Part shown: piece after piece, positions 15,385 through 62,109 of the stretch
How the letters are laid out: every line of letters begins with the position of its first letter
How positions within the stretch are numbered: position 1 is the stretch's first letter
Assembly (NCBI RefSeq): GCF_015840715.1
Contig: NZ_CP060397.1
Coordinates: forward strand, 1,818,686-1,882,685
Source of the DNA: Synechococcus sp. CBW1004
GTDB taxonomy: Bacteria > Cyanobacteriota > Cyanobacteriia > PCC-6307 > Cyanobiaceae
Direction: 5' to 3'
DNA length: 64,000 nt
Made by a program: the position numbers and the translations under genes
The notes under the pieces: generated by a model
Database searches by the model: none
What the model was told of the DNA's origin: nothing
The model's input: only the letters and a program-made list of their open reading frames with translations

Positions 15385-17154
15385 ATGACCGTCTCCCCCA
15401 GCCCGATGCCCGCCGCGCCCGCCAGCGGCCGCCTCAGCCTGCAGTGCCAGGACATCGCCGCGGACACCACCGCGATCCGCTCCCTGGACTGGGACCGCAG
15501 CCGTTTTGACATCGAGTTCGGCCTGCGCAACGGCACCACCTACAACAGCTTTCTGGTGCGCGGTGAGCGCACGGCGCTGATCGACACCAGCCATCTCAAG
15601 TTCGAAGGCACCTGGCTGCCGCTGCTGCAGGAGCAGATCGACCCCAAGGCGATCGATCACCTGATCGTCAGCCACACCGAACCGGATCATTCCGGCCTGA
15701 TCGGCCACCTGATCGATCTCAACCCCGAGATCGAGATCGTCGGCTCGAAGGTGGCGATCCAGTTCCTCGAGAACCAGGTGCACCGGCCATTCAGAAGCCG
15801 CGCCGTCAAGAGCGGAGAGGAGCTTGATCTGGGCGTCAACCCGGACAGCGGTGTGCAGCACCGCTTCGAATTCCTGAGCGCGCCGAACCTGCACTGGCCG
15901 GACACGATCTTCTCGTTCGACCATGGCACCGGCATCCTCTACACCTGCGATGCCTTCGGCCTGCACTACTGCAGCGACGAGCTGTTCGACAGCGATCCTG
16001 GCGCCATCGCTCCCGATTTCCGCTTCTACTACGAGTGCCTGATGGGCCCCAATGCCCGCAGCGTGCTGCAGGCGATGAAGCGCATGGACGCCCTGCCGCC
16101 GATCACCACGATCGCGGTGGGCCACGGGCCGCTGCTGCGTCATCACCTCAACCTCTGGACCGGCGACTACCGCAGCTGGAGCAGTGAGCGCAGCCAGGGT
16201 GAGGCCTATGCGGCGGTCTGCTATCTGAGCCAGTACGGCTTCTGCGACCGCCTCAGCCAGGCGATCGCCCGCGGCATCGGCAAGGCCGAGGCCCAGGTGC
16301 AGCTGGTGGATCTGCGCGCCACCGACGCCCAGGAGCTCAGCGCCCTGGTCGGTGAGGCCCGTGCCGTGGTGGTGCCCACCTGGCCCGCGGAGCCGGATGC
16401 CGAGCTGCAGGCCTCCATCGGCACCCTGCTCGCGGCGCTCAAGCCGAAGCAGTGGGTGGCGGTCTACGACGCCTACGGCGGCAACGACCAGCCGATCGAC
16501 ACCGTCGCCAGCCAGCTGCGCGGCCTGGGCCAGAAGCAGGCCTTCGCGCCGCTGCGCATCCGTCAGGTGCCCGGCGCCGCCGAGTATCAGCTCTGCGAGG
16601 AGGCCGGCACCGACCTGGGTCAGCTGCTCACCCGCGACAAGGCGATCGCGGCGATGAAATCGCTCGACGGCGATCTCGACAAGGCGCTCGGCCGCCTCTC
16701 CGGGGGCCTGTACGTCGTGACGGCCCGCCAGGGTGAGGGGGAGAGCGTCCGCAGCGGCGCCATGGTGGCCAGCTGGGTGAGCCAGGCCAGCTTCGATCCG
16801 CCCGGCATCACGATCGCCGTCGCCAAGGACCGGGCGATCGAATCGCTGCTGCAGGTGGGCGATCGCTTCGTGCTCAACATCCTGCGCGACGACAATCACC
16901 AGCCGCTGCTGCGCCATTTTCTGAAGCGCTTCCCGCCCGGGGCCGATCGCTTTGCCGGCGTCAACGTGCTCGATGGCGTCGCCAGCGGCGGACCGGTGCT
17001 CGGCGATGCCCTCGCCTTTCTGGGCTGTCGCGTCACCCAGCGGATGGAGGTGCCGGACCACTGGATCGTCTATGCCGAGGTGGAGCAGGGCAACGTCTCC
17101 GACGCCACCGCCCGCACCGCCGTGCACCACCGCAAGGTGGGCAACCATTACTGA
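15385..17154 (+). CDS. flv3: Flavodiiron protein Flv3-type (canonical diiron site)
   Basis: 589 residues in three parts: a metallo-beta-lactamase-like diiron domain (about 25-265), a flavodoxin domain (about 270-415, VCYLSQYGFCDRLSQAIARG) and a C-terminal flavin reductase domain (about 440-589, GAMVASWVSQASFDPPGITIAVAKDR), the cyanobacterial class C layout. The iron-ligand motif H-x-E-x-D-H is complete (H97, E99, D101, H102), as in Flv3 and Flv4. With Flv1 it reduces O2 to water with electrons from photosystem I, protecting it under fluctuating light. Its partner flv1 follows 160 bp downstream. GGAGCAGG sits upstream of the ATG. Confidence 0.93.
   Translation: MTVSPSPMPAAPASGRLSLQCQDIAADTTAIRSLDWDRSRFDIEFGLRNGTTYNSFLVRGERTALIDTSHLKFEGTWLPLLQEQIDPKAIDHLIVSHTEPDHSGLIGHLIDLNPEIEIVGSKVAIQFLENQVHRPFRSRAVKSGEELDLGVNPDSGVQHRFEFLSAPNLHWPDTIFSFDHGTGILYTCDAFGLHYCSDELFDSDPGAIAPDFRFYYECLMGPNARSVLQAMKRMDALPPITTIAVGHGPLLRHHLNLWTGDYRSWSSERSQGEAYAAVCYLSQYGFCDRLSQAIARGIGKAEAQVQLVDLRATDAQELSALVGEARAVVVPTWPAEPDAELQASIGTLLAALKPKQWVAVYDAYGGNDQPIDTVASQLRGLGQKQAFAPLRIRQVPGAAEYQLCEEAGTDLGQLLTRDKAIAAMKSLDGDLDKALGRLSGGLYVVTARQGEGESVRSGAMVASWVSQASFDPPGITIAVAKDRAIESLLQVGDRFVLNILRDDNHQPLLRHFLKRFPPGADRFAGVNVLDGVASGGPVLGDALAFLGCRVTQRMEVPDHWIVYAEVEQGNVSDATARTAVHHRKVGNHY
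16261..16268 (+). repeat. HIP1 octamer (example)
   Basis: GCGATCGC, the highly iterated palindrome of many cyanobacterial genomes, occurs here within flv3; another copy lies at 5569-5576 in alaS. Several more are scattered in the window, supporting a cyanobacterial source. Confidence 0.7.
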
Positions 17155-17314: not shown

Positions 17315-19186
17315 ATGCCTGCCCTCAATCCCCCGGCCCCCCTCCAGGACGCGCCCACGGCCGGCGCCGGGTCGCCCGAGTCGGCTGGCCGCCGCGTCAT
17401 CGCCCTGCCGATCGAACCGGGCCTCGTCTGTCTGCGGGGCCTGAGCCCGCGGCGGCTGCGCTTCGAGGTGGAGTACGGCCTGGAGCGGGGCACCACCGCC
17501 AACAGCTTCCTGTTCGAGGGCGGCACGGCGGTGGATGGTCATCCGGTGCCGCCGGTGCTGATCCATCCGCCCGGCATGACCTACGCCGAGCCCTTCTTCG
17601 CCGCCCTGGCCGAGCGGGTGCCGGCGGATGCCGCCCTCAAGGTGGTGGTGGGCGTGGTCAACCCCAACCGGGTGGAGCTGCTGCGGGCGCTGGCCCAGCG
17701 CTGGCCGAACCTGGCGCTGGTGGCCTCCAATGCCGGCGCCAAGCTGCTGCGTGAGCTGTGGGACCAGCGCAAGCCGGTGGGCCCCGGCGAGTCCGAGCCG
17801 CCGCCGCTGCCGCCTTTGCCGGCCATCGATGTGGTGAAGCAGGACGTCTGCCGCCGCCTGGCCGGGGGCTTCAGCCTCTGCCTGATCCCGGCGCCCACCC
17901 CCCGCTGGCCGGGGGCGCTGATGGCGTTTGAGGAGAGCACCGGCCTGCTGATGAGCAGCAAGTTCTTCTCGGCCCACATCTGCGACGAGGCCTACGACGA
18001 GGCCAACCGCAGCAGCACCGAGGAGGACCGCCGCTGGTTCTACGACTGCCTGATGGCGCCGATGGCCCGCCAGGTGGAGATGGTGCTCGACAAGCTGGAC
18101 GAGCTGCCGATCCGCACGATCGCGCCGTTCCACGGGCCGGCGATCGCAGGCAGCTGGCGCAGCCTGGTGGCCGACTACCGCCGCTGGGGCGAGGGCCAGA
18201 ACCGCTCGCGTCTGTCGGTGGCGCTCCTGTATGCCAGCGCCTACGGCAACACCGCCGCCATCGCCGATGCCCTGGCCCGTGGCGTGTCGCGCACCGGCGT
18301 GCGGGTGGAGAGCCTCAACTGTGAGTTCGCCGAGCCCGAGCAGCTGCTGGCGGCCATCCGCGGTTGCGACGCCCTGTTGATCGGCTCGCCCACCCTCGGA
18401 GGGCATGCGCCCACACCGATCGTGTCGGCCCTGGGCACGGTGCTGGCCGAGGGCGACCGCAGCAAGCCCGTGGGGGTGTTCGGCAGCTTCGGCTGGAGCG
18501 GTGAGGCCCTCGATCTGCTGGAGGGCAAGCTGCGCGACGGTGGCTTCCGCTTCGCCTTCGAGCCCGTCAAGGTGAAGTTCAGCCCTGACGCCAGCCGCAT
18601 CCAGGCGCTTGAGGAGACCGGCACCGCCCTGGGCCGCCAGCTGCAGGCCGAGCAGCGCCGCAGCGAACGGCGCGCCGCCGGCGGATTGCAGGAGAGCCGC
18701 AGCGAACCGGCGATCCAGGCCCTCGGACGGGTGGTGGGCTCCCTGTGCGTGCTCACTGCCGTGCGTGGCGAGGGCGAGGGCCGCCTCAGCGGCGCCATGG
18801 TGGCCAGCTGGGTGAGCCAGGCCAGCTTCAGCCCGCCGGGGATCACCGTGGCCGTGGCGAAGGACCGGGCGGTGGAGACCCTGCTGCATGTGGGCGATGC
18901 CTTCGCTCTCAACGTGCTCGCCGAGGGGCGCCAGAGCGGGCCGATGAAGCGCTTCCTGCAGCCCTTCTCCCCCGGTGCCGACCGCTTCGCCGGCCTCGAG
19001 ATGGAGAGCGGTCCGGCCGGTCAGCCGATCCTGCCCGAGGCCCTGGCCTGGCTGGAGGCCACGGTGCAGCAGCGGATGGAATGCGGCGACCACTGGCTGA
19101 TCTATGCCCGGGTGGATCACGGCGGGCTGCTCGATGCCAGCGGGGTGACGGCGGTGCACCAGCGCCGCAGCGGCGCCAATTACTGA
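17315..19186 (+). CDS. flv1: Flavodiiron protein Flv1-type (degenerate diiron site)
   Basis: 623 residues with the same three-domain layout as the upstream gene: lactamase-like domain (about 35-295), flavodoxin domain (about 300-455, VALLYASAYGNTAAIADALARG) and flavin reductase domain (about 480-623). The iron-binding motif of Flv3 is replaced here by GVVNPNRVEL, with no His, Glu or Asp at the ligand positions. This loss is characteristic of Flv1 and Flv2 and is not a sign of a pseudogene; Flv1 works as the partner of Flv3 in a heteromer. An insertion around residues 150-175 is Pro-rich. The flv3-flv1 order and spacing point to co-transcription. Confidence 0.92.
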   Translation: MPALNPPAPLQDAPTAGAGSPESAGRRVIALPIEPGLVCLRGLSPRRLRFEVEYGLERGTTANSFLFEGGTAVDGHPVPPVLIHPPGMTYAEPFFAALAERVPADAALKVVVGVVNPNRVELLRALAQRWPNLALVASNAGAKLLRELWDQRKPVGPGESEPPPLPPLPAIDVVKQDVCRRLAGGFSLCLIPAPTPRWPGALMAFEESTGLLMSSKFFSAHICDEAYDEANRSSTEEDRRWFYDCLMAPMARQVEMVLDKLDELPIRTIAPFHGPAIAGSWRSLVADYRRWGEGQNRSRLSVALLYASAYGNTAAIADALARGVSRTGVRVESLNCEFAEPEQLLAAIRGCDALLIGSPTLGGHAPTPIVSALGTVLAEGDRSKPVGVFGSFGWSGEALDLLEGKLRDGGFRFAFEPVKVKFSPDASRIQALEETGTALGRQLQAEQRRSERRAAGGLQESRSEPAIQALGRVVGSLCVLTAVRGEGEGRLSGAMVASWVSQASFSPPGITVAVAKDRAVETLLHVGDAFALNVLAEGRQSGPMKRFLQPFSPGADRFAGLEMESGPAGQPILPEALAWLEATVQQRMECGDHWLIYARVDHGGLLDASGVTAVHQRRSGANY

Positions 19187-29367: not shown

Positions 29368-30339
29368 TTGCCCGTTCGTCCGCCAGCCGACCCCGATGCG
29401 GCGGCCCGCGACATCCTCCGGATTCCCCATCCCGGCGAACCGCTCGAATCCGCCCCGTCCGTGCGGCGGGAGCGAGCCCTGCGTGAGGGAATGAGCGTGG
29501 CGCGGCAGCCCCTGCCGCCCCGCCAGCGCAAGATCAAGCTCGGCACCACGGGCTTCATGCTGGCGATCCACATCGGCGCCGTGGCCGCCCTGCTGCCCAT
29601 GTACCGCAGCTGGCAGGGCCTGGCTGTTCTGGCGGTCCTCTACTGGATGACGGTGCTGGGGGTCACCCTCGGCCTGCATCGGCTGGTGGCCCACCGCGGC
29701 TTCGAGGCGCCCCGCTGGCTGGAGCGGCTGCTGGTGCTGATGGGCACCCTGGCCTGCCAGAGCGGTCCGATCGAATGGGTGGGGCTGCATCGCCATCACC
29801 ATCTGTTCTCCGATCAGCCCAACGATCACCACGACGCTGCCCGCGGCCTGTGGTGGGCCCACAGCGAGTGGATGCTGCACGACATCCCGGCCCTGCGCGA
29901 GATCCACCGCTTCACCGGCGACCTGGAGCGCGATCCTTTCTATCGCTGGCTGGATCGCTGGTTCCTGCTGCTGCAGATCCCCCTGGGGCTGATGCTCTAC
30001 GCCTATGGCGAAGCCGCCGGGGTGCATGGCGGCGGCCTGGGCCTGGTGCTGTGGGGCATTCCCCTGCGCCTGGTGCTCGTCTACCACGTCACCTGGCTGG
30101 TGAATTCGGCCACCCACGCCTTCGGCTACCGCAACTTCGACTGCCCCGATCGCTCCCGCAACTGCTGGTGGGTGGCGCTGCTCACCTTCGGCGAGGGCTG
30201 GCACAACAACCACCACGCCCATCCCGCCAGCGCCCGCCACGGGCTGCGCTGGTACGAGTTCGACATCACCTGGCAGCACATCCGCCTGCTGCGCGCCCTG
30301 GGCCTGGCCCGGCGCCTGCGGGTGGCGCGGCTGCCGTGA
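29368..30339 (+). CDS. Fatty acid desaturase, DesC-like (copy 1)
   Basis: Up to 323 residues. Three histidine boxes are complete: HRLVAHR, HRHHH and HNNHH, with hydrophobic pairs between ([39 protein letters not shown]). This is the membrane diiron acyl-lipid or acyl-CoA delta-9 desaturase family; products adjust membrane fluidity to temperature. The start is uncertain: TTG at 29368 gives an N-terminal extension like that of its paralogue, while ATG at 29491 removes it. The paralogue lies at 32322 in the same direction with two unrelated genes between. Confidence 0.92.
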   Translation: MPVRPPADPDAAARDILRIPHPGEPLESAPSVRRERALREGMSVARQPLPPRQRKIKLGTTGFMLAIHIGAVAALLPMYRSWQGLAVLAVLYWMTVLGVTLGLHRLVAHRGFEAPRWLERLLVLMGTLACQSGPIEWVGLHRHHHLFSDQPNDHHDAARGLWWAHSEWMLHDIPALREIHRFTGDLERDPFYRWLDRWFLLLQIPLGLMLYAYGEAAGVHGGGLGLVLWGIPLRLVLVYHVTWLVNSATHAFGYRNFDCPDRSRNCWWVALLTFGEGWHNNHHAHPASARHGLRWYEFDITWQHIRLLRALGLARRLRVARLP

Positions 30340-32321: not shown

Positions 32322-33302
32322 ATGGCCGCCACACCTTCCTCCCGCCCAGCGCGCCCCGGCGGGCTGCATGCACAGCACACCCGTCGCTGCGCCACCATCA
32401 ACACCGGCGCCGACTCCCTGCGTCGGGCCCAGTCCTTGCATCGGCCCCGTCACGGGGAGATGGCCGTGGCGCCGCAGAAGGGTCGCAACTGGGGCGTCAT
32501 CGCCTTCATGGCGGCCATTCACGTGCTGGCGGTGGTGGCCCTGCTGCCGCAGTTCTGGAGTCTTCCCGCCGTCGCCACCCTGCTGATCCTCTACTGGGTC
32601 ACCGCCTGCCTCGGCGTCACCATCGGCTACCACCGCCTGCTCAGCCACCGCGCCTTCCGGCTGCCCCAGTGGCTGGAGCGCTTCTTCGCCACCTGCGGCG
32701 CCCTCAGCTGCCAGCACGGTCCGATCGACTGGGTGGGGCTGCACCGCCACCACCACAAGTTCTCCGATACGGATGCCGATCACCACGACAGCAACAAGGG
32801 CTTCTGGTGGAGCCACATGGGCTGGATGCTCGAGGCGGTGCCCGCCCTGGCCTCGGTGCCCCGTCTCACCGGTGATCTGGCCGCCGATCCCTACTACCGC
32901 TGGCTGAACAAGTGGTTCCTGGTGCTGCAGCTGCCCCTCGCCGCCCTGCTGTTCTGGATCGGCACCGTCACCGGCGCCGGCGGCTGGGCCCTCGTCCTCT
33001 GGGGCATCCCGCTGCGTCTGGTGCTCGTCTATCACGTCACCTGGCTGGTGAACTCGGCCACCCACTGCTGGGGTGAAGCCGTGCACGACAGCGGTGACAA
33101 GTCGCGCAACAACCTCTGGGTCGCCCTGTTCACCTTCGGCGAGGGCTGGCACAACAACCACCACGCCTACCCCCACTCCGCCCGCCACGGCTTCGGCCCC
33201 GGTCAGATCGACCTCACCTGGCAGCACATCCGTCTGCTGCGCGCCCTCGGCCTCGCCACCCAGGTCCGCCTGCCGCGGGCCGCGGCTCGGCCCATGTCGT
33301 AG
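32322..33302 (+). CDS. Fatty acid desaturase, DesC-like (copy 2)
   Basis: 326 residues, closely related to the gene at 29368. Histidine boxes HRLLSHR, HRHHH and HNNHH are complete. The two share long identical stretches such as [22 protein letters not shown] and [12 protein letters not shown]-type ends, and the region LLRALGLA near the C-terminus. It should be a membrane delta-9-type acyl-lipid desaturase. The first 46 residues are Ser/Arg/Thr-rich; an internal ATG at 32460 ([12 protein letters not shown]) is an alternative. rplI follows 44 bp downstream. Confidence 0.93.
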
Positions 33303-55696: not shown

Positions 55697-58600
55697 TCAG
55701 CCGGAGATGAGATCGAAGATGAGATCGACGATCAGGTCGTCGTGATCCTTGTCGCCACCCCCGAAGAGATCTTCAAAGCCCACCTTGTTAGGGGCGAGAA
55801 ACTTGAAGTGGTTGTAGCCATCGTCATTCGCCGCAGCGAAGCTGAAGAAGGTCTGGTTCGTGGTCAGCACGGTGCCATAGAGGGCGACGAGACCCTGATT
55901 GACCTCGTTGAACACGATCGCTTCCGAGGCCGATTGATCATCGGCACGCGACAGCTCGGTGTCGCTGACGCGGTTGCTCTCTGCAAGTGCAGCGGCTGCA
56001 TAGCCGGCATCGCCGGGCTTGTAGATGACTCCCGAAACAGCATCGCGAACATCGCCATTCTCGTTGAGAACCCTGTAGAAGCCGACACGAGAGCTGAAGT
56101 CGGCCTCTCGGGAGGCTGTGGCCTCGGCAGCCACGGCGCTGAAGCCCGTGGAAGCCAGATCGAGCAGGAAGGGGACATCCGGCCCCTGGTAGGCATCGAT
56201 GCCGGTGATGGCGTCGCTGTTCTGGGCCAGATTGCTGACGCGCAGAATCTGCCCACCCTCGACCAGGTTCTGGTCGTCGATGGAGCCTCCCTTGACCCCG
56301 TGGGCCTGGACGGTGAAGAAGAAGTCTGTGCCCGGAGTGTTTCCGTAGAGCGCGGAGACATCGATGATGCCGCTGCTCTCCCAGGCGCCGAGACTGCCGG
56401 CTTCCGTATCGGTCTGGCCGGCGGGGAGTGCGGCATCGCGGTTCATGACGAGGATGCGCTCGGCGTCACCGGAGGTGGCATTCACCTTCCAGATGGAGGC
56501 TTCCTTGCCCTCAAAGGGAGTGGAGCGATCTTCATTGACATAGATTTTGCCGTCAGCGGACCAGGCCAGGTTGTCCGGGCTGCGTACGCCCAGCTGCTGA
56601 TTGTCAGCAGCGTCACCGTCGTAGAGGTGCTTGAGGAGAGCAGTTGCCGGAGCGGTGCCATCGGCATTGAAGCTGACATCGAGAGTCCAGACCGAGCCGA
56701 ACTTGTCATCACCGGCCCTGTCATTCTTCCCGCCACCGGTGGTGTTGAAGGCGATCTGGCTGGGGTCGTTGGGGTTGAAATCCACGTCTTCCACCCGGTA
56801 GCCCATGAAGCCACCCCCGTTGAACACCTCGGTGCGGAGGGTGGGGGCGAGCTTGTAGCCCTGGTCGTCGTAGCCAGGCTGGCCGGCTTTGCTCACATCC
56901 TGAGCATCGATGGCCACCCAGGTGCCTGCATCGGTGCCACCTTCTGCCAGGCCATCCTCATTGCGAACGCCCGTCGTCGATTTCCAGTAGAAGAGCTGGC
57001 CGCCCACCAGGCCGTTGCGCTCGAGGACATTGCCATCGGCCTTCTTGGTGCCGACATAGAGATAGAGGGGAGCGCCTTCTCCGGCGGGACCGTCGTCACC
57101 GAGGAAGTAGGCCACGGTGTCGGTGCTGCCGGTGTCGACCATGGCGGCCGATTCCCAGCCGCCATAGGCCAGGTCGGGAGCGGCCCAGAGCTCACCCTCG
57201 TTGACATCGAGGATCCACATGGTGCCGTTGGTGAATTCCTCCCCCAGCAGGAACAGGCGATCGGCGGCCCCCTTGCCGGGCCCGAAGGTGTTTGCTTCCA
57301 CCAGGTTGGCGGAGCAGAAGCGGTTCAGGCCACCGACCGAGATGCCGGGACCGCGCACCTGAGCCTCGTCGGTGACGAGATCGCCGTTGCGGTCGTAGAT
57401 GGTGTCGTAGGCGAGGCCGCCACTGACCACCTGGCCGGCGTTGTTGACCTCGATGAAGTTGATGCGTGCGCCCTTGAGCTCGGCCCCACTGGCGAGCAGA
57501 TAGCTGTAGCCCTTGTCGTTGCCGATCTCGCTGTTGATCAGGATGCGGATGGTGTCGTCATCGACCCGATAGGCGCCCAGGCCATCGGGGATGCCGGTGG
57601 CCGTGAAGCCCGCGACGCTCTGACCGATGGTGTACAGGGACTCGACGGCATAACCAGGAGCGGAGGGCGTCATGAACGCCTCCACCGCCGGGGCAGCCGC
57701 AGAGGCGGCAACGATCTGCCCACCCTCGACCAGGTTCTGGTCGTCGATGGAGCCTCCCTTGACCCCGTGGGCCTGGACGGTGAAGAAGAAGTCTGTGCCC
57801 GGAGTGTTTCCGTAGAGCGCGGAGACATCGATGATGCCGCTGCTCTCCCAGGCGCCGAGACTGCCGGCTTCCGTATCGGTCTGGCCGGCGGGGAGTGCGG
57901 CATCGCGGTTCATGACGAGGATGCGCTCGGCGTCACCGGAGGTGGCATTCACCTTCCAGATGGAGGCTTCCTTGCCCTCAAAGGGAGTGGAGCGATCTTC
58001 ATTGACATAGATTTTGCCGTCAGCGGACCAGGCCAGGTTGTCCGGGCTGCGTACGCCCAGCTGCTGATTGTCAGCAGCGTCACCGTCGTAGAGGTGCTTG
58101 AGGAGAGCAGTTGCCGGAGCGGTGCCATCGGCATTGAAGCTGACATCGAGAGTCCAGACCGAGCCGAACTTGTCATCACCGGCCCTGTCATTCTTCCCGC
58201 CACCGGTGGTGTTGAAGGCGATCTGGCTGGGGTCGTTGGGGTTGAAATCCACGTCTTCCACCCGGTAGCCCATGAAGCCACCCCCGTTGAACACCTCGGT
58301 GCGGAGGGTGGGGGCGAGCTTGTAGCCCTGGTCGTCGTAGCCAGGCTGGCCGGCTTTGCTCACATCCTGAGCATCGATGGCCACCCAGGTGCCTGCATCG
58401 GTGCCACCTTCTGCCAGGCCATCCTCATTGCGAACGCCCGTCGTCGATTTCCAGTAGAAGAGCTGGCCGCCCACCAGGCCGTTGCGCTCGAGGACATTGC
58501 CATCGGCCTTCTTGGTGCCGACATAGAGATAGAGGGGAGCGCCTTCTCCGGCGGGACCGTCGTCACCGAGGAAGTAGGCCACGGTGTCGGTGCTGCCGGT

Positions 58601-61600
58601 GTCGACCATGGCGGCCGATTCCCAGCCGCCATAGGCCAGGTCGGGAGCGGCCCAGAGCTCACCCTCGTTGACATCGAGGATCCACATGGTGCCGTTGGTG
58701 AATTCCTCCCCCAGCAGGAACAGGCGATCGGCGGCCCCCTTGCCGGGCCCGAAGGTGTTTGCTTCCACCAGGTTGGCGGAGCAGAAGCGGTTCAGGCCAC
58801 CGACCGAGATGCCGGGACCGCGCACCTGAGCCTCGTCGGTGACGAGATCGCCGTTGCGGTCGTAGATGGTGTCGTAGGCGAGGCCGCCACTGACCACCTG
58901 GCCGGCGTTGTTGACCTCGATGAAGTTGATGCGTGCGCCCTTGAGCTCGGCCCCACTGGCGAGCAGATAGCTGTAGCCCTTGTCGTTGCCGATCTCGCTG
59001 TTGATCAGGATGCGGATGGTGTCGTCATCGACCCGATAGGCGCCCAGGCCATCGGGGATGCCGGTGATCCTGCCGGTATCACCACCCCCAATTGTGTAGA
59101 GCGCTTCGGTGCGGAAGCCGCTACCCGACACCGGCAGCATCATCTCGGGCAGTGTGCCGCCGTTGAACTGGTTCTGGTCAGCGGCGGAGCGCACATCGCC
59201 GAAGCGGAAGAACTCGAGTGTGCCTGAGACTTCATTGGCGACCATCAGATAGCCGGTGCCTGACTGGTCGTCACGGATGAACTTCACACCCTCCGGTGAG
59301 ATCGAGGACTGTGACTGAAGCGCCTGCACATAGACCGGCTGGTAGGGATCGGTGATGTCATAGGCCAACACGGTTGAGGTGGTGCCCCGTTCAAGGCCCA
59401 TGAAGGCATAGCGGCGCCCGTTGATCACCTGGGTGGTCACCATCTCGGGCTCGGTGCCCTTGTCGTCGCTGCGGCCTTCGTCGTAGATGCCAAGCTGCTT
59501 GGCGATTTCTTCCAGCTGGTTCCCCGAATCAAAGATCAGATTCTGGTTCTGGTCGTAGATGCGGAAGCTGCGGCTGCCGAAGGCATAGGCCTGGTCGAGC
59601 ACACCATCCCCGTCATAATCACCATCGGTGTTCGACAGATTCAGACGGCTGCCGAGGTTGGCGGTGTCGGCGCCATTGAGACTCCCGGCCCGGGTCTTGT
59701 CGGGGGTGCTGATGCTGTTGGGATCATCGCCAGCGCGATCGTCTCCTTCGCCCACCACGATGATGAAGGTCTCGCCGCCCTGGCTGAAGGCATCAAGGCC
59801 GTCGGCCATGGTGAGGCCGTACAGCTTGCGGACGGCGATGTCATCCGTCTGGCCGTCCCTGTCGTTCGTGTCGATCGGGGTCGGAATGAAGCGCACTTCG
59901 GTGAGGACGTTGTCGGCGCGATCGGCCACCTTGATGAAGTCGTTGTCGAAGCCGAACACGAGCGAGCCATCGGGCTTGAGGGCGAGCCCTTCGGCCTTGT
60001 CGAAGGCAGGATCCGCTCCGCGGACGCTGGGGAGATTGAACAGCTCCTCGCGGCGTGCCATCTGAATGCCCTGGCTGTCCAGCAGATCGGCGATGCTGCC
60101 GAATGGCGTGGTCTTGAGGTCCACCAGCTCCGGTTGGGTGCTTCCACCCAGCACATCAGCCCAGTTTTTGCCGTTCTGGGCCAGCGTGTAATCGAGAGTG
60201 TCTGTGGCGCCTTTGAGATTGATTTCCGTGATCGACTTGTTCGCCGTGGCGCCGAGTTCACTGTCGCGCTCAATGACGAGAAACACATCGCGCTCGGCGT
60301 CATAGACCGCATCACCGATCTTGTCCTGACCGGCCTCGATCGGCAGCAGGCTCAGGTATTCGTGCACAGGCTCGCCGCTCAGGGGGTTGATGGCGAGGAT
60401 GCGGATGAATTCCTTGTTGTTGTAGCCATCCGGGCGCAGAGGGCTCTGTACGAAGGCGTAGAGCAGGCCATCGTTGGGATTGAAGGCCATCCCCTCGAAG
60501 CCGCGGTTCGCCTGGCGATCGCCGTAAACCGCCGGCAGCGAGAAGGTGGTGTAGCCAGCCACATCACCGCGGCCTGCGGCGTAATCGCTGGGATTGAAAA
60601 CAGTGTTGCTGGCAACGAAGCGCTGGATCAGGTTGCCCGTGCTTGCATCGAACAGAGCCACCTGAGGGCGGTATTCGTCGGAGACGGCGAATACCGGATT
60701 GCCGCCATTGAGACCGGGCAGCGTGAATGCGTTGATCGACTCGGTGTCCAGGCCGAAGGCATCCCAGCCCACCTGTTCGTAGACGTTGTACTGGTTGGGG
60801 TCACCGGCGATGCCGTTGCCGGCCGTCTTCAGAGCGAAGGCCTTGTCGTCGGTGCCGGGCAGTTCGCCGATGCCGGTGGCCAGACGGAAGCCGCCGTTGC
60901 CGTCGGGCACTTTCAGGCTGATGGTGTCGACCACCGTGACAACGCCGTCGTTGTTGGCCAGGCGGTAGACCGTCGGCGCGAAGTCGGGATCGTCGAAGAT
61001 CTTCTCGCCTCTGTTCGGATCGTTCGGGTTGTCATTGGGGCGATCGCCGATGTTCGCGGCCTGGGGGCCGCGATCGCTGATCGTGAGGTAAAACTCGCTT
61101 GTTCCCTCTTTGCCCTCGTACCACAGACCGGAGAGGCCGCCGGCGATCACTTCACCGGCCTCAACGGTTCCGTTGCCATTGAAATCGGGGCGGGTGCCGG
61201 TGTAGGCGAGATCAAAGGCGTAGTTGCTGGCCTCGGGGGTGCCGCGGCTCCAGTCCTTGATCCCGAGACTCCAGATGTCGCTGAGCTTGCCGCTGGCCAG
61301 ATCCACCTCGGCGATGGCGTTGTTCTCCTGCAATGTCACGTAGGCCTTGTTGCCCACGATTGCGATGGCTTCCGGCTCAAAATCCTGGGCGGCGGTGGCT
61401 CCGGGAGTGCCTTCATTCAGGCGGATGCCCAGCAGACCCAGCTTCACCTTCTGATTGTTGTAGGCCTCAAAGCCCAGCGTGGTGACAGCAAAACCATTGG
61501 CGTCGGTGGTGGCTGCCGTGAAGCTGCTCACGTCGATCAGGGAGATCGAACCCACCGCATCGGTGGTGGTGCTGTCGATCGCTTCGCCTTCGTTGGCCAC

Positions 61601-61978
61601 CACAAGCCTGGTGCCGGCGGCATTGAATGCCACCGAATCCGGCAGGGCACCCACCTTCACCTCCCCGAGTGCCGTGAGGGTCGTCTGTTCACCGGTGCCG
61701 GACAGGCGCAGGAACAGGATGCTGCCTTCCTCGGCCTTGTCAGTCGGGTTCACCAGGGCCACCGCCACCAGATCACCGCTCACGGCAACGCTCTGGGCGG
61801 CAGCGGGAAGCGCGAACGCGCTCAGCAGCTGTGGATTGCTGATGGAGCTGAGGTTGACAAGTCGCAGGCTGTTGTCGCCACCGGTGACCAGGGCAACGGC
61901 ATGCTCTGAAGAGAACGTGGCGATTTCTGCTCCACCCAGATCGATGCTGGAGAGAGGGCCTGTGGTCAGCGCAGACAT
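55697..61978 (-). CDS. Giant secreted phosphatase/phytase-like protein with duplicated PhoX-type module
   Basis: 2,093 residues. Part 1 (about 1-180) is the first half of a choice-of-anchor-I propeller (SVAVSGDLVAVALVNP, LPDSVAFNAAGTRLVVANEGEA). Part 2 (about 255-800) is an esterase-like phytase domain (YEGKEGTSEFYLTISDRGPQ, GFEGMAFNPNDGLLYAFVQ, KAEGLALKPDGSLVFGFDND). Part 3 (about 860-955) looks like the propeller's other half (TEPEMVTTQVINGRRYAFMGLER, SPEGVKFI). Parts 4 and 5 (about 971-1422 and 1460-1911) are two identical PhoX/DUF839-like modules, each with GLNRFCSANLVEANTF and NRDGDxx-like Asp-rich loops. A C-terminal DUF4114 domain (DDGYNHFKF, VGFEDLFGGGDKDHDDLIVDL) ends the chain. Calcium-binding Asp-rich loops occur (DFNGNGTVEAGEV, DGDYDGDGVLD). 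No N-terminal signal peptide is present, which with DUF4114 points to type I secretion. Likely role: hydrolysis of organic phosphate outside the cell, probably under Pho control. Confidence 0.88.
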   Translation of the reverse strand: MSALTTGPLSSIDLGGAEIATFSSEHAVALVTGGDNSLRLVNLSSISNPQLLSAFALPAAAQSVAVSGDLVAVALVNPTDKAEEGSILFLRLSGTGEQTTLTALGEVKVGALPDSVAFNAAGTRLVVANEGEAIDSTTTDAVGSISLIDVSSFTAATTDANGFAVTTLGFEAYNNQKVKLGLLGIRLNEGTPGATAAQDFEPEAIAIVGNKAYVTLQENNAIAEVDLASGKLSDIWSLGIKDWSRGTPEASNYAFDLAYTGTRPDFNGNGTVEAGEVIAGGLSGLWYEGKEGTSEFYLTISDRGPQAANIGDRPNDNPNDPNRGEKIFDDPDFAPTVYRLANNDGVVTVVDTISLKVPDGNGGFRLATGIGELPGTDDKAFALKTAGNGIAGDPNQYNVYEQVGWDAFGLDTESINAFTLPGLNGGNPVFAVSDEYRPQVALFDASTGNLIQRFVASNTVFNPSDYAAGRGDVAGYTTFSLPAVYGDRQANRGFEGMAFNPNDGLLYAFVQSPLRPDGYNNKEFIRILAINPLSGEPVHEYLSLLPIEAGQDKIGDAVYDAERDVFLVIERDSELGATANKSITEINLKGATDTLDYTLAQNGKNWADVLGGSTQPELVDLKTTPFGSIADLLDSQGIQMARREELFNLPSVRGADPAFDKAEGLALKPDGSLVFGFDNDFIKVADRADNVLTEVRFIPTPIDTNDRDGQTDDIAVRKLYGLTMADGLDAFSQGGETFIIVVGEGDDRAGDDPNSISTPDKTRAGSLNGADTANLGSRLNLSNTDGDYDGDGVLDQAYAFGSRSFRIYDQNQNLIFDSGNQLEEIAKQLGIYDEGRSDDKGTEPEMVTTQVINGRRYAFMGLERGTTSTVLAYDITDPYQPVYVQALQSQSSISPEGVKFIRDDQSGTGYLMVANEVSGTLEFFRFGDVRSAADQNQFNGGTLPEMMLPVSGSGFRTEALYTIGGGDTGRITGIPDGLGAYRVDDDTIRILINSEIGNDKGYSYLLASGAELKGARINFIEVNNAGQVVSGGLAYDTIYDRNGDLVTDEAQVRGPGISVGGLNRFCSANLVEANTFGPGKGAADRLFLLGEEFTNGTMWILDVNEGELWAAPDLAYGGWESAAMVDTGSTDTVAYFLGDDGPAGEGAPLYLYVGTKKADGNVLERNGLVGGQLFYWKSTTGVRNEDGLAEGGTDAGTWVAIDAQDVSKAGQPGYDDQGYKLAPTLRTEVFNGGGFMGYRVEDVDFNPNDPSQIAFNTTGGGKNDRAGDDKFGSVWTLDVSFNADGTAPATALLKHLYDGDAADNQQLGVRSPDNLAWSADGKIYVNEDRSTPFEGKEASIWKVNATSGDAERILVMNRDAALPAGQTDTEAGSLGAWESSGIIDVSALYGNTPGTDFFFTVQAHGVKGGSIDDQNLVEGGQIVAASAAAPAVEAFMTPSAPGYAVESLYTIGQSVAGFTATGIPDGLGAYRVDDDTIRILINSEIGNDKGYSYLLASGAELKGARINFIEVNNAGQVVSGGLAYDTIYDRNGDLVTDEAQVRGPGISVGGLNRFCSANLVEANTFGPGKGAADRLFLLGEEFTNGTMWILDVNEGELWAAPDLAYGGWESAAMVDTGSTDTVAYFLGDDGPAGEGAPLYLYVGTKKADGNVLERNGLVGGQLFYWKSTTGVRNEDGLAEGGTDAGTWVAIDAQDVSKAGQPGYDDQGYKLAPTLRTEVFNGGGFMGYRVEDVDFNPNDPSQIAFNTTGGGKNDRAGDDKFGSVWTLDVSFNADGTAPATALLKHLYDGDAADNQQLGVRSPDNLAWSADGKIYVNEDRSTPFEGKEASIWKVNATSGDAERILVMNRDAALPAGQTDTEAGSLGAWESSGIIDVSALYGNTPGTDFFFTVQAHGVKGGSIDDQNLVEGGQILRVSNLAQNSDAITGIDAYQGPDVPFLLDLASTGFSAVAAEATASREADFSSRVGFYRVLNENGDVRDAVSGVIYKPGDAGYAAAALAESNRVSDTELSRADDQSASEAIVFNEVNQGLVALYGTVLTTNQTFFSFAAANDDGYNHFKFLAPNKVGFEDLFGGGDKDHDDLIVDLIFDLISG
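56248..57599 (-). repeat. 1,352-bp direct repeat, copy coding the second PhoX-like module
   Basis: This block matches 57715-59066 with a constant offset of 1,467 bp. Translations in the sense frame and in other frames are identical across both copies, so the DNA is identical or nearly so. It codes residues about 1460-1911. A 115-bp unique spacer (57600-57714) separates the copies. Confidence 0.92.
57715..59066 (-). repeat. 1,352-bp direct repeat, copy coding the first PhoX-like module
   Basis: The partner of 56248-57599, coding residues about 971-1422. Identity ends abruptly on both sides (at the codons after GGQI and before TGIPDG), as expected for a recent in-frame tandem duplication. Confidence 0.92.
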
Positions 61979-62079: not shown

Positions 62080-62109
62080 TGGTTATCGGGGGATTAACTT
62101 CCGGCTAAC
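62080..62109 (-). promoter_or_regulatory. Pho-box-like triple repeat upstream of the giant gene
   Basis: On the minus strand three octamers, GTTAGCCG, GTTAATCC and GATAACCA, are separated by 3 bp each (GAA, CCC), an exact 11-bp period. Cyanobacterial PhoB (SphR) sites are such direct repeats of PyTTAAPyPy(T/A) with 3-bp gaps. The cores match loosely, two of three well. The site lies 102-131 bp upstream of the ATG at 61978. It suggests induction by phosphate shortage. Confidence 0.5.

Follow-up and report, generated by a model that had tools for sequence, protein, structure and literature searches.

Two identical PhoX-like modules in a single reading frame of Synechococcus sp. CBW1004, probably homogenised by intragenic recombination

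The window, a 64,000-nucleotide stretch of the genome of Synechococcus sp. CBW1004 (NZ_CP060397.1, positions 1,818,686 to 1,882,685), contains one unbroken ORF of 2,093 residues, the parts of which are given in Table 1. The translated protein consists of a choice-of-anchor I domain carrying an inserted phytase-like domain, followed by two PhoX-like modules and a C-terminal DUF4114-like tail. The component domains are known, and their arrangement is unusual. No obvious N-terminal signal peptide was found in the 2,093-residue translation. Judged from its sequence the ORF encodes a large multi-domain phosphatase that is probably exported, both export and catalysis being predictions.

Table 1. Features of the two-module phosphatase gene and its upstream region; coordinates are positions in the window.
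Feature	Coordinates	Strand	Residues	Basis or remark
Pho box TTAGCC-n5-TTAATC-n5-ATAACC	62081..62108	-		102 bp upstream of the ATG; sole match in 64 kb, expected 0.00
ORF, 2,093 aa: choice-of-anchor I / phytase-like / PhoX module 1 / PhoX module 2 / DUF4114-like tail	55697..61978	-		
Choice-of-anchor I domain, first part	61244..61798	-	61-245	Pfam PF22494
Phytase-like domain, inserted in choice-of-anchor I	59936..61141	-	280-681	Pfam PF13449, E 1e-29
Choice-of-anchor I domain, second part	59231..59875	-	702-916	NCBIfam NF038117
Module 1 start, outside the identical block	59067..59143	-		Homologous to 57600-57676
Identical block, copy 1 (core of PhoX-like module 1)	57714..59066	-	~972-1421	Exact match; PhoX fold
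Unique 114-bp stretch between the blocks	57600..57713	-		Linker and diverged module 2 start (57600-57676)
Identical block, copy 2 (core of PhoX-like module 2)	56247..57599	-	~1461-1910	Exact match
C-terminal DUF4114-like stretch	55721..55864	-	2039-2086	25.2 bits, just under the Pfam cut-off of 27

The two blocks were aligned base by base, as the original prediction had proposed, and matched letter for letter over 1,353 bp with zero mismatches. That prediction had placed identical blocks 1,467 bp apart, which was exactly the offset observed, and had given their length as 1,352 bp with a start (56248) that proved one base late. The offset corresponds to 489 codons within one ORF, so the reading frame is kept, as had been anticipated, and it was the sole offset between repeated 20-mers at 50-64 kb of the window. 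The expected lack of synonymous differences was also seen, with none of the 248 fourfold sites differing between the two cores. The description of the locus as a tandem duplication stood only in part: the repeat is real, but the unique linker and the diverged homologous module starts of approximately 25 codons make it other than a simple tandem. In the genome, which was assembled as a single contig of 3,672,318 bp with an estimated completeness of 99.98%, the block is present exactly twice, both this copy number and the base-level identity being taken from one assembly. By chance alone, exact repeats in a 3.67-Mb genome with this composition should reach approximately 23 bp, compared with 1,353 bp here. 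Further genomic DNA matches to the block (L003 and L004, 34-50 bp) were rejected as chance-level.

Elsewhere in the window, copies at 30030-30330 and 32978-33278, 2,948 bp apart and 80-88% identical, contain HNNHH motifs typical of fatty acid desaturases and are likely to be an ordinary paralog pair. A 202-bp direct repeat of 76% identity was found at 16682-16883 and 18717-18918, 2,035 bp apart.

The nature of the repeated modules was examined using profile and fold comparisons. The ORF matched PF05787 in two stretches with a score of 49.7 bits against the curated Pfam cut-off of 24. A search of the PDB with the single module sequence gave no match, but a profile built from 23 related modules matched PhoX of Pseudomonas fluorescens (3zwu/4amf) with an E value of 5e-7. 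The AlphaFold model of the module had a pLDDT of 87.4, and when this model was submitted to Foldseek the first two matches were P. fluorescens PhoX with E values of 3e-15 and 5e-15. The best match in VIA was again P. fluorescens PhoX with a Z score of 24.1, a score without power to separate PhoX from other propellers (24.0), which are separated by aligned length, at 400 residues for PhoX compared to approximately 270 for generic propellers. Residues E273, D292, R385 and E387 of PhoX align with E181, D201, R300 and E302 of the module, all four being invariant in the 23-module alignment. Cys127, Glu152 and Glu153 of the module lie outside the aligned part of the profile match, and these are only tentatively taken to be the N-terminal ligands of a PhoX-type site. 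Each identical block is thus predicted, from the profiles and the model, to form the core of a PhoX-like β-propeller phosphatase module, and the earlier designation as a catalytic module appears right in kind.

The upstream region of the gene contains a Pho box in which three repeats resembling TTAACC are spaced 11 bp apart, with 3 mismatches in the 18 core bases (GTTAGCCG-gaa-GTTAATCC-ccc-GATAACCA including the linkers). This fits the published cyanobacterial Pho box recognised by SphR/PhoB, which has three or more 8-bp repeats similar to CTTAACCT separated by 3-bp linkers (PMC1906773). The Pho box is found at the same place upstream of the orthologues in the draft genomes G032 and G028, and no comparable box was found upstream of the genes of relatives G034, G386, G598, G638 and G694. 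Pho control is therefore proposed only for the window gene and these two closest relatives. The combination of PhoX-like modules and a conserved Pho box suggests that this is probably a phosphate-starvation-induced phosphatase gene.

Immediately 5' of the blocks, the two stretches of approximately 25 codons are homologous yet diverged, with 44% amino acid identity and 52% DNA identity between modules 1 and 2. The module 1 start (FRTEALYTIGGGDTG-RITG) is common to module 1 of G032 and G028, including a one-residue deletion, and is 79% identical to the module 1 starts of both, while the module 2 start (YAVESLYTIGQSVAGFTATG) is of a different type. On the 5' side the identity tract stops approximately 25 codons inside a longer homologous region, and on the 3' side it stops at the end of module homology. 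The window core differs from that of G032 at 100 of 215 fourfold sites (46.5%, dS approximately 0.94) and from that of G028 at 67 of 158; across the relatives sharing the module 1 start signature the cores differ at 42-47% of fourfold sites, and dS is approximately 0.9-1.1. The modules within this genome are more alike than orthologues, silent sites included (0/248 compared to 47% against G032). In the tree, window module 1 (W_M1) grouped with G032/G028 with support of 94/92, despite its identical core.

If one module had been duplicated in tandem very recently, and the linker and second start had arrived together with it or diverged fast, this would explain why all sites are identical and the frame preserved. 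The flanks of a fresh copy would be either identical or unrelated, so the homologous but diverged flanks disfavour a simple fresh duplication. Homologous starts of 44% identity are incompatible with a duplication lacking any difference in 1,353 bp, and the module 1 start is of the inherited type shared with G032 and G028. The diverged starts and identical cores indicate instead that two modules were present first, that the split from G032/G028 came next and that homogenisation of the core came last.

The comparison of relatives for one or two modules, also proposed originally, gave a partial answer. One-module genes of the same type are present in G231 and G756, as would be expected if the window gene had recently been duplicated. 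In nine draft relatives (G032, G028, G021, G011, G034, G015, G406, G386 and G753) the contig breaks off within the module or no more than 4 bp past the block end. On the 5' side the contigs of G015, G011, G034, G386 and G406 end inside the module, and on the 3' side those of G011, G034, G021, G753 and G406 begin inside it. The contig of G032 stops 4 bp after the position matching the block end, and in G028 exactly 143 bp are shared between the end of one contig and the start of another. Contig sharing in G028 and G032 was considered as proof of two modules but carries less weight, since k-mer ends can be shared through strain mixtures as well. In G021 and G034 the 3'-side contigs start 120 and 123 bp ahead of the module end, which would fit a k-mer near 127 if the end of the shared stretch coincides with that of the module. 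One-module paralogs were cut in only 1 of 37 cases, a difference from the nine relatives with a Fisher P of 9e-9 (2e-7 against drafts only), the counts being our own tally of the places given above and the genomes not being independent samples.

The breaks look as collapsed near-identical repeats would and suggest that these relatives too have two modules, which speaks against a recent origin of the second module in the window; in part, the breaks may be due to strain mixtures in MAGs. The contig ends of G406 overlap by 210 bp at approximately 83% identity, a direct sign of two similar module copies. No contig with a module 2 start was found in G032 or G028, and we infer the two-module state of both from the contig breaks. 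Contiguous pairs in the distant relatives G598 and G638, which belong to other families, had 84% and 82% DNA identity with longest exact runs of 107 and 95 bp in a patchy pattern, and each pair grouped within its own genome in the tree. The module pairs of G694 and G724 are 70-72% identical. No relative was found with both modules fully assembled that was close enough to show homogenisation directly. Weighing the module starts and the relatives together, a very recent duplication is unlikely.

The PhoX pair occurs in several fusion contexts among the relatives, and plasmid records contained distant relatives only, at 25-27%. Several relatives have giant modular proteins in which unrelated families of phosphatase are combined: L059/L060 of G011 has PhoD and PhoX in one chain, L062/L063 of G034 combines choice-of-anchor I, phytase-like, 5'-nucleotidase C and PhoX parts, and L121 of G598 contains GDPD, phytase-like, three PhoX stretches and RTX repeats in a single chain. 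On the minus strand of L066 (G043) a PhoX gene of another family seems interrupted, the module resuming in an ORF approximately 800 bp downstream, perhaps due to an insertion. At a contig edge in G028 (C130:8-310), a fragment that matches residues 1-101 of the window ORF at 68% possibly belongs to a second related gene.

An assembly artefact, meaning either a spurious second copy or two similar copies equalised by short-read polishing, is at least as unlikely as the recent duplication: polishing of repeats with short reads can remove a few differences and could have done so here, but the genome is one near-complete contig, the frame is intact through both copies and the tail, and the unique linker and module 2 start belong to the second module and cannot be produced by duplicating module 1, making a gross artefact unlikely.

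Of the origins offered in the original prediction, gene conversion is thus favoured over very recent duplication and gross artefact. We consider it likely that this is an older two-module phosphatase gene in which the 1,353-bp core was later homogenised by intragenic gene conversion or unequal exchange. The two-module layout would predate the split from the nearest relatives found, and intragenic recombination would recently have copied one core onto the other along 1,353 bp. The recombination, itself presumed, would have proceeded by gene conversion or by unequal crossing-over between chromosome copies; a conversion tract and multi-step expansion and contraction by unequal crossing-over leave the same trace. 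The same homogenisation probably happened repeatedly in related species. The presumed benefit would be that each secreted chain has two sites, both kept functional by selection.

More tentatively, the tandem PhoX modules in giant multi-phosphatase genes of Cyanobiaceae may be kept identical by recurrent intragenic conversion, with the repeat allowing in-frame change of module number; the two active sites would then evolve as one. RecA-dependent deletion between direct repeats is established, and a perfect in-frame direct repeat of 1.35 kb should recombine often to give an in-frame, one-module protein of 1,604 residues. The persistence of both copies despite this hints at selection for two sites. 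Gene conversion and the loss and gain of modules could be measured cleanly in a system such as this, where identical catalytic domains share one frame and have probably been homogenised on several occasions in related species. A further implication is that such phosphatase genes are systematically lost or broken when this group is assembled from short reads, and that counts of PhoX in MAGs and drafts are probably underestimates.

Compared with the PhoX alkaline phosphatase of P. fluorescens (PF05787; PDB 3zwu/4a9v/4alf), the window module has the same predicted fold and aligned site residues but is only 14-18% identical, and the window protein joins two modules to choice-of-anchor I, phytase-like and DUF4114-like segments within a chain of 2,093 residues. 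A PhoX-like site on a β-propeller is likewise present in Psip1, a protein of marine picocyanobacteria (PMC11098088). D292 and R385 are named there as PhoX site residues; in Psip1 a lysine replaces R385 and D292 is absent, whereas the window module retains arginine and aspartate at these positions (PMC11098088). Psip1 is not described as tandem in that work, in contrast to the two modules of the window gene. The Cyanobiaceae proteins with choice-of-anchor I and a single PhoX (L068; ORFs of 1017-1150 residues in approximately 36 genomes) have the same choice-of-anchor I to PhoX order, but share approximately 45% module identity with the window protein, contain one module with no phytase-like insert reported and are not broken in assemblies. 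To our knowledge, concerted evolution in bacteria has been described mainly for separate gene copies. Duplicated prokaryotic genes evolving in concert are more alike within a genome than orthologues are, at synonymous sites as well (PMC6053082), and while those systems comprise whole separate genes such as tuf, the window gene holds two modules within one reading frame.
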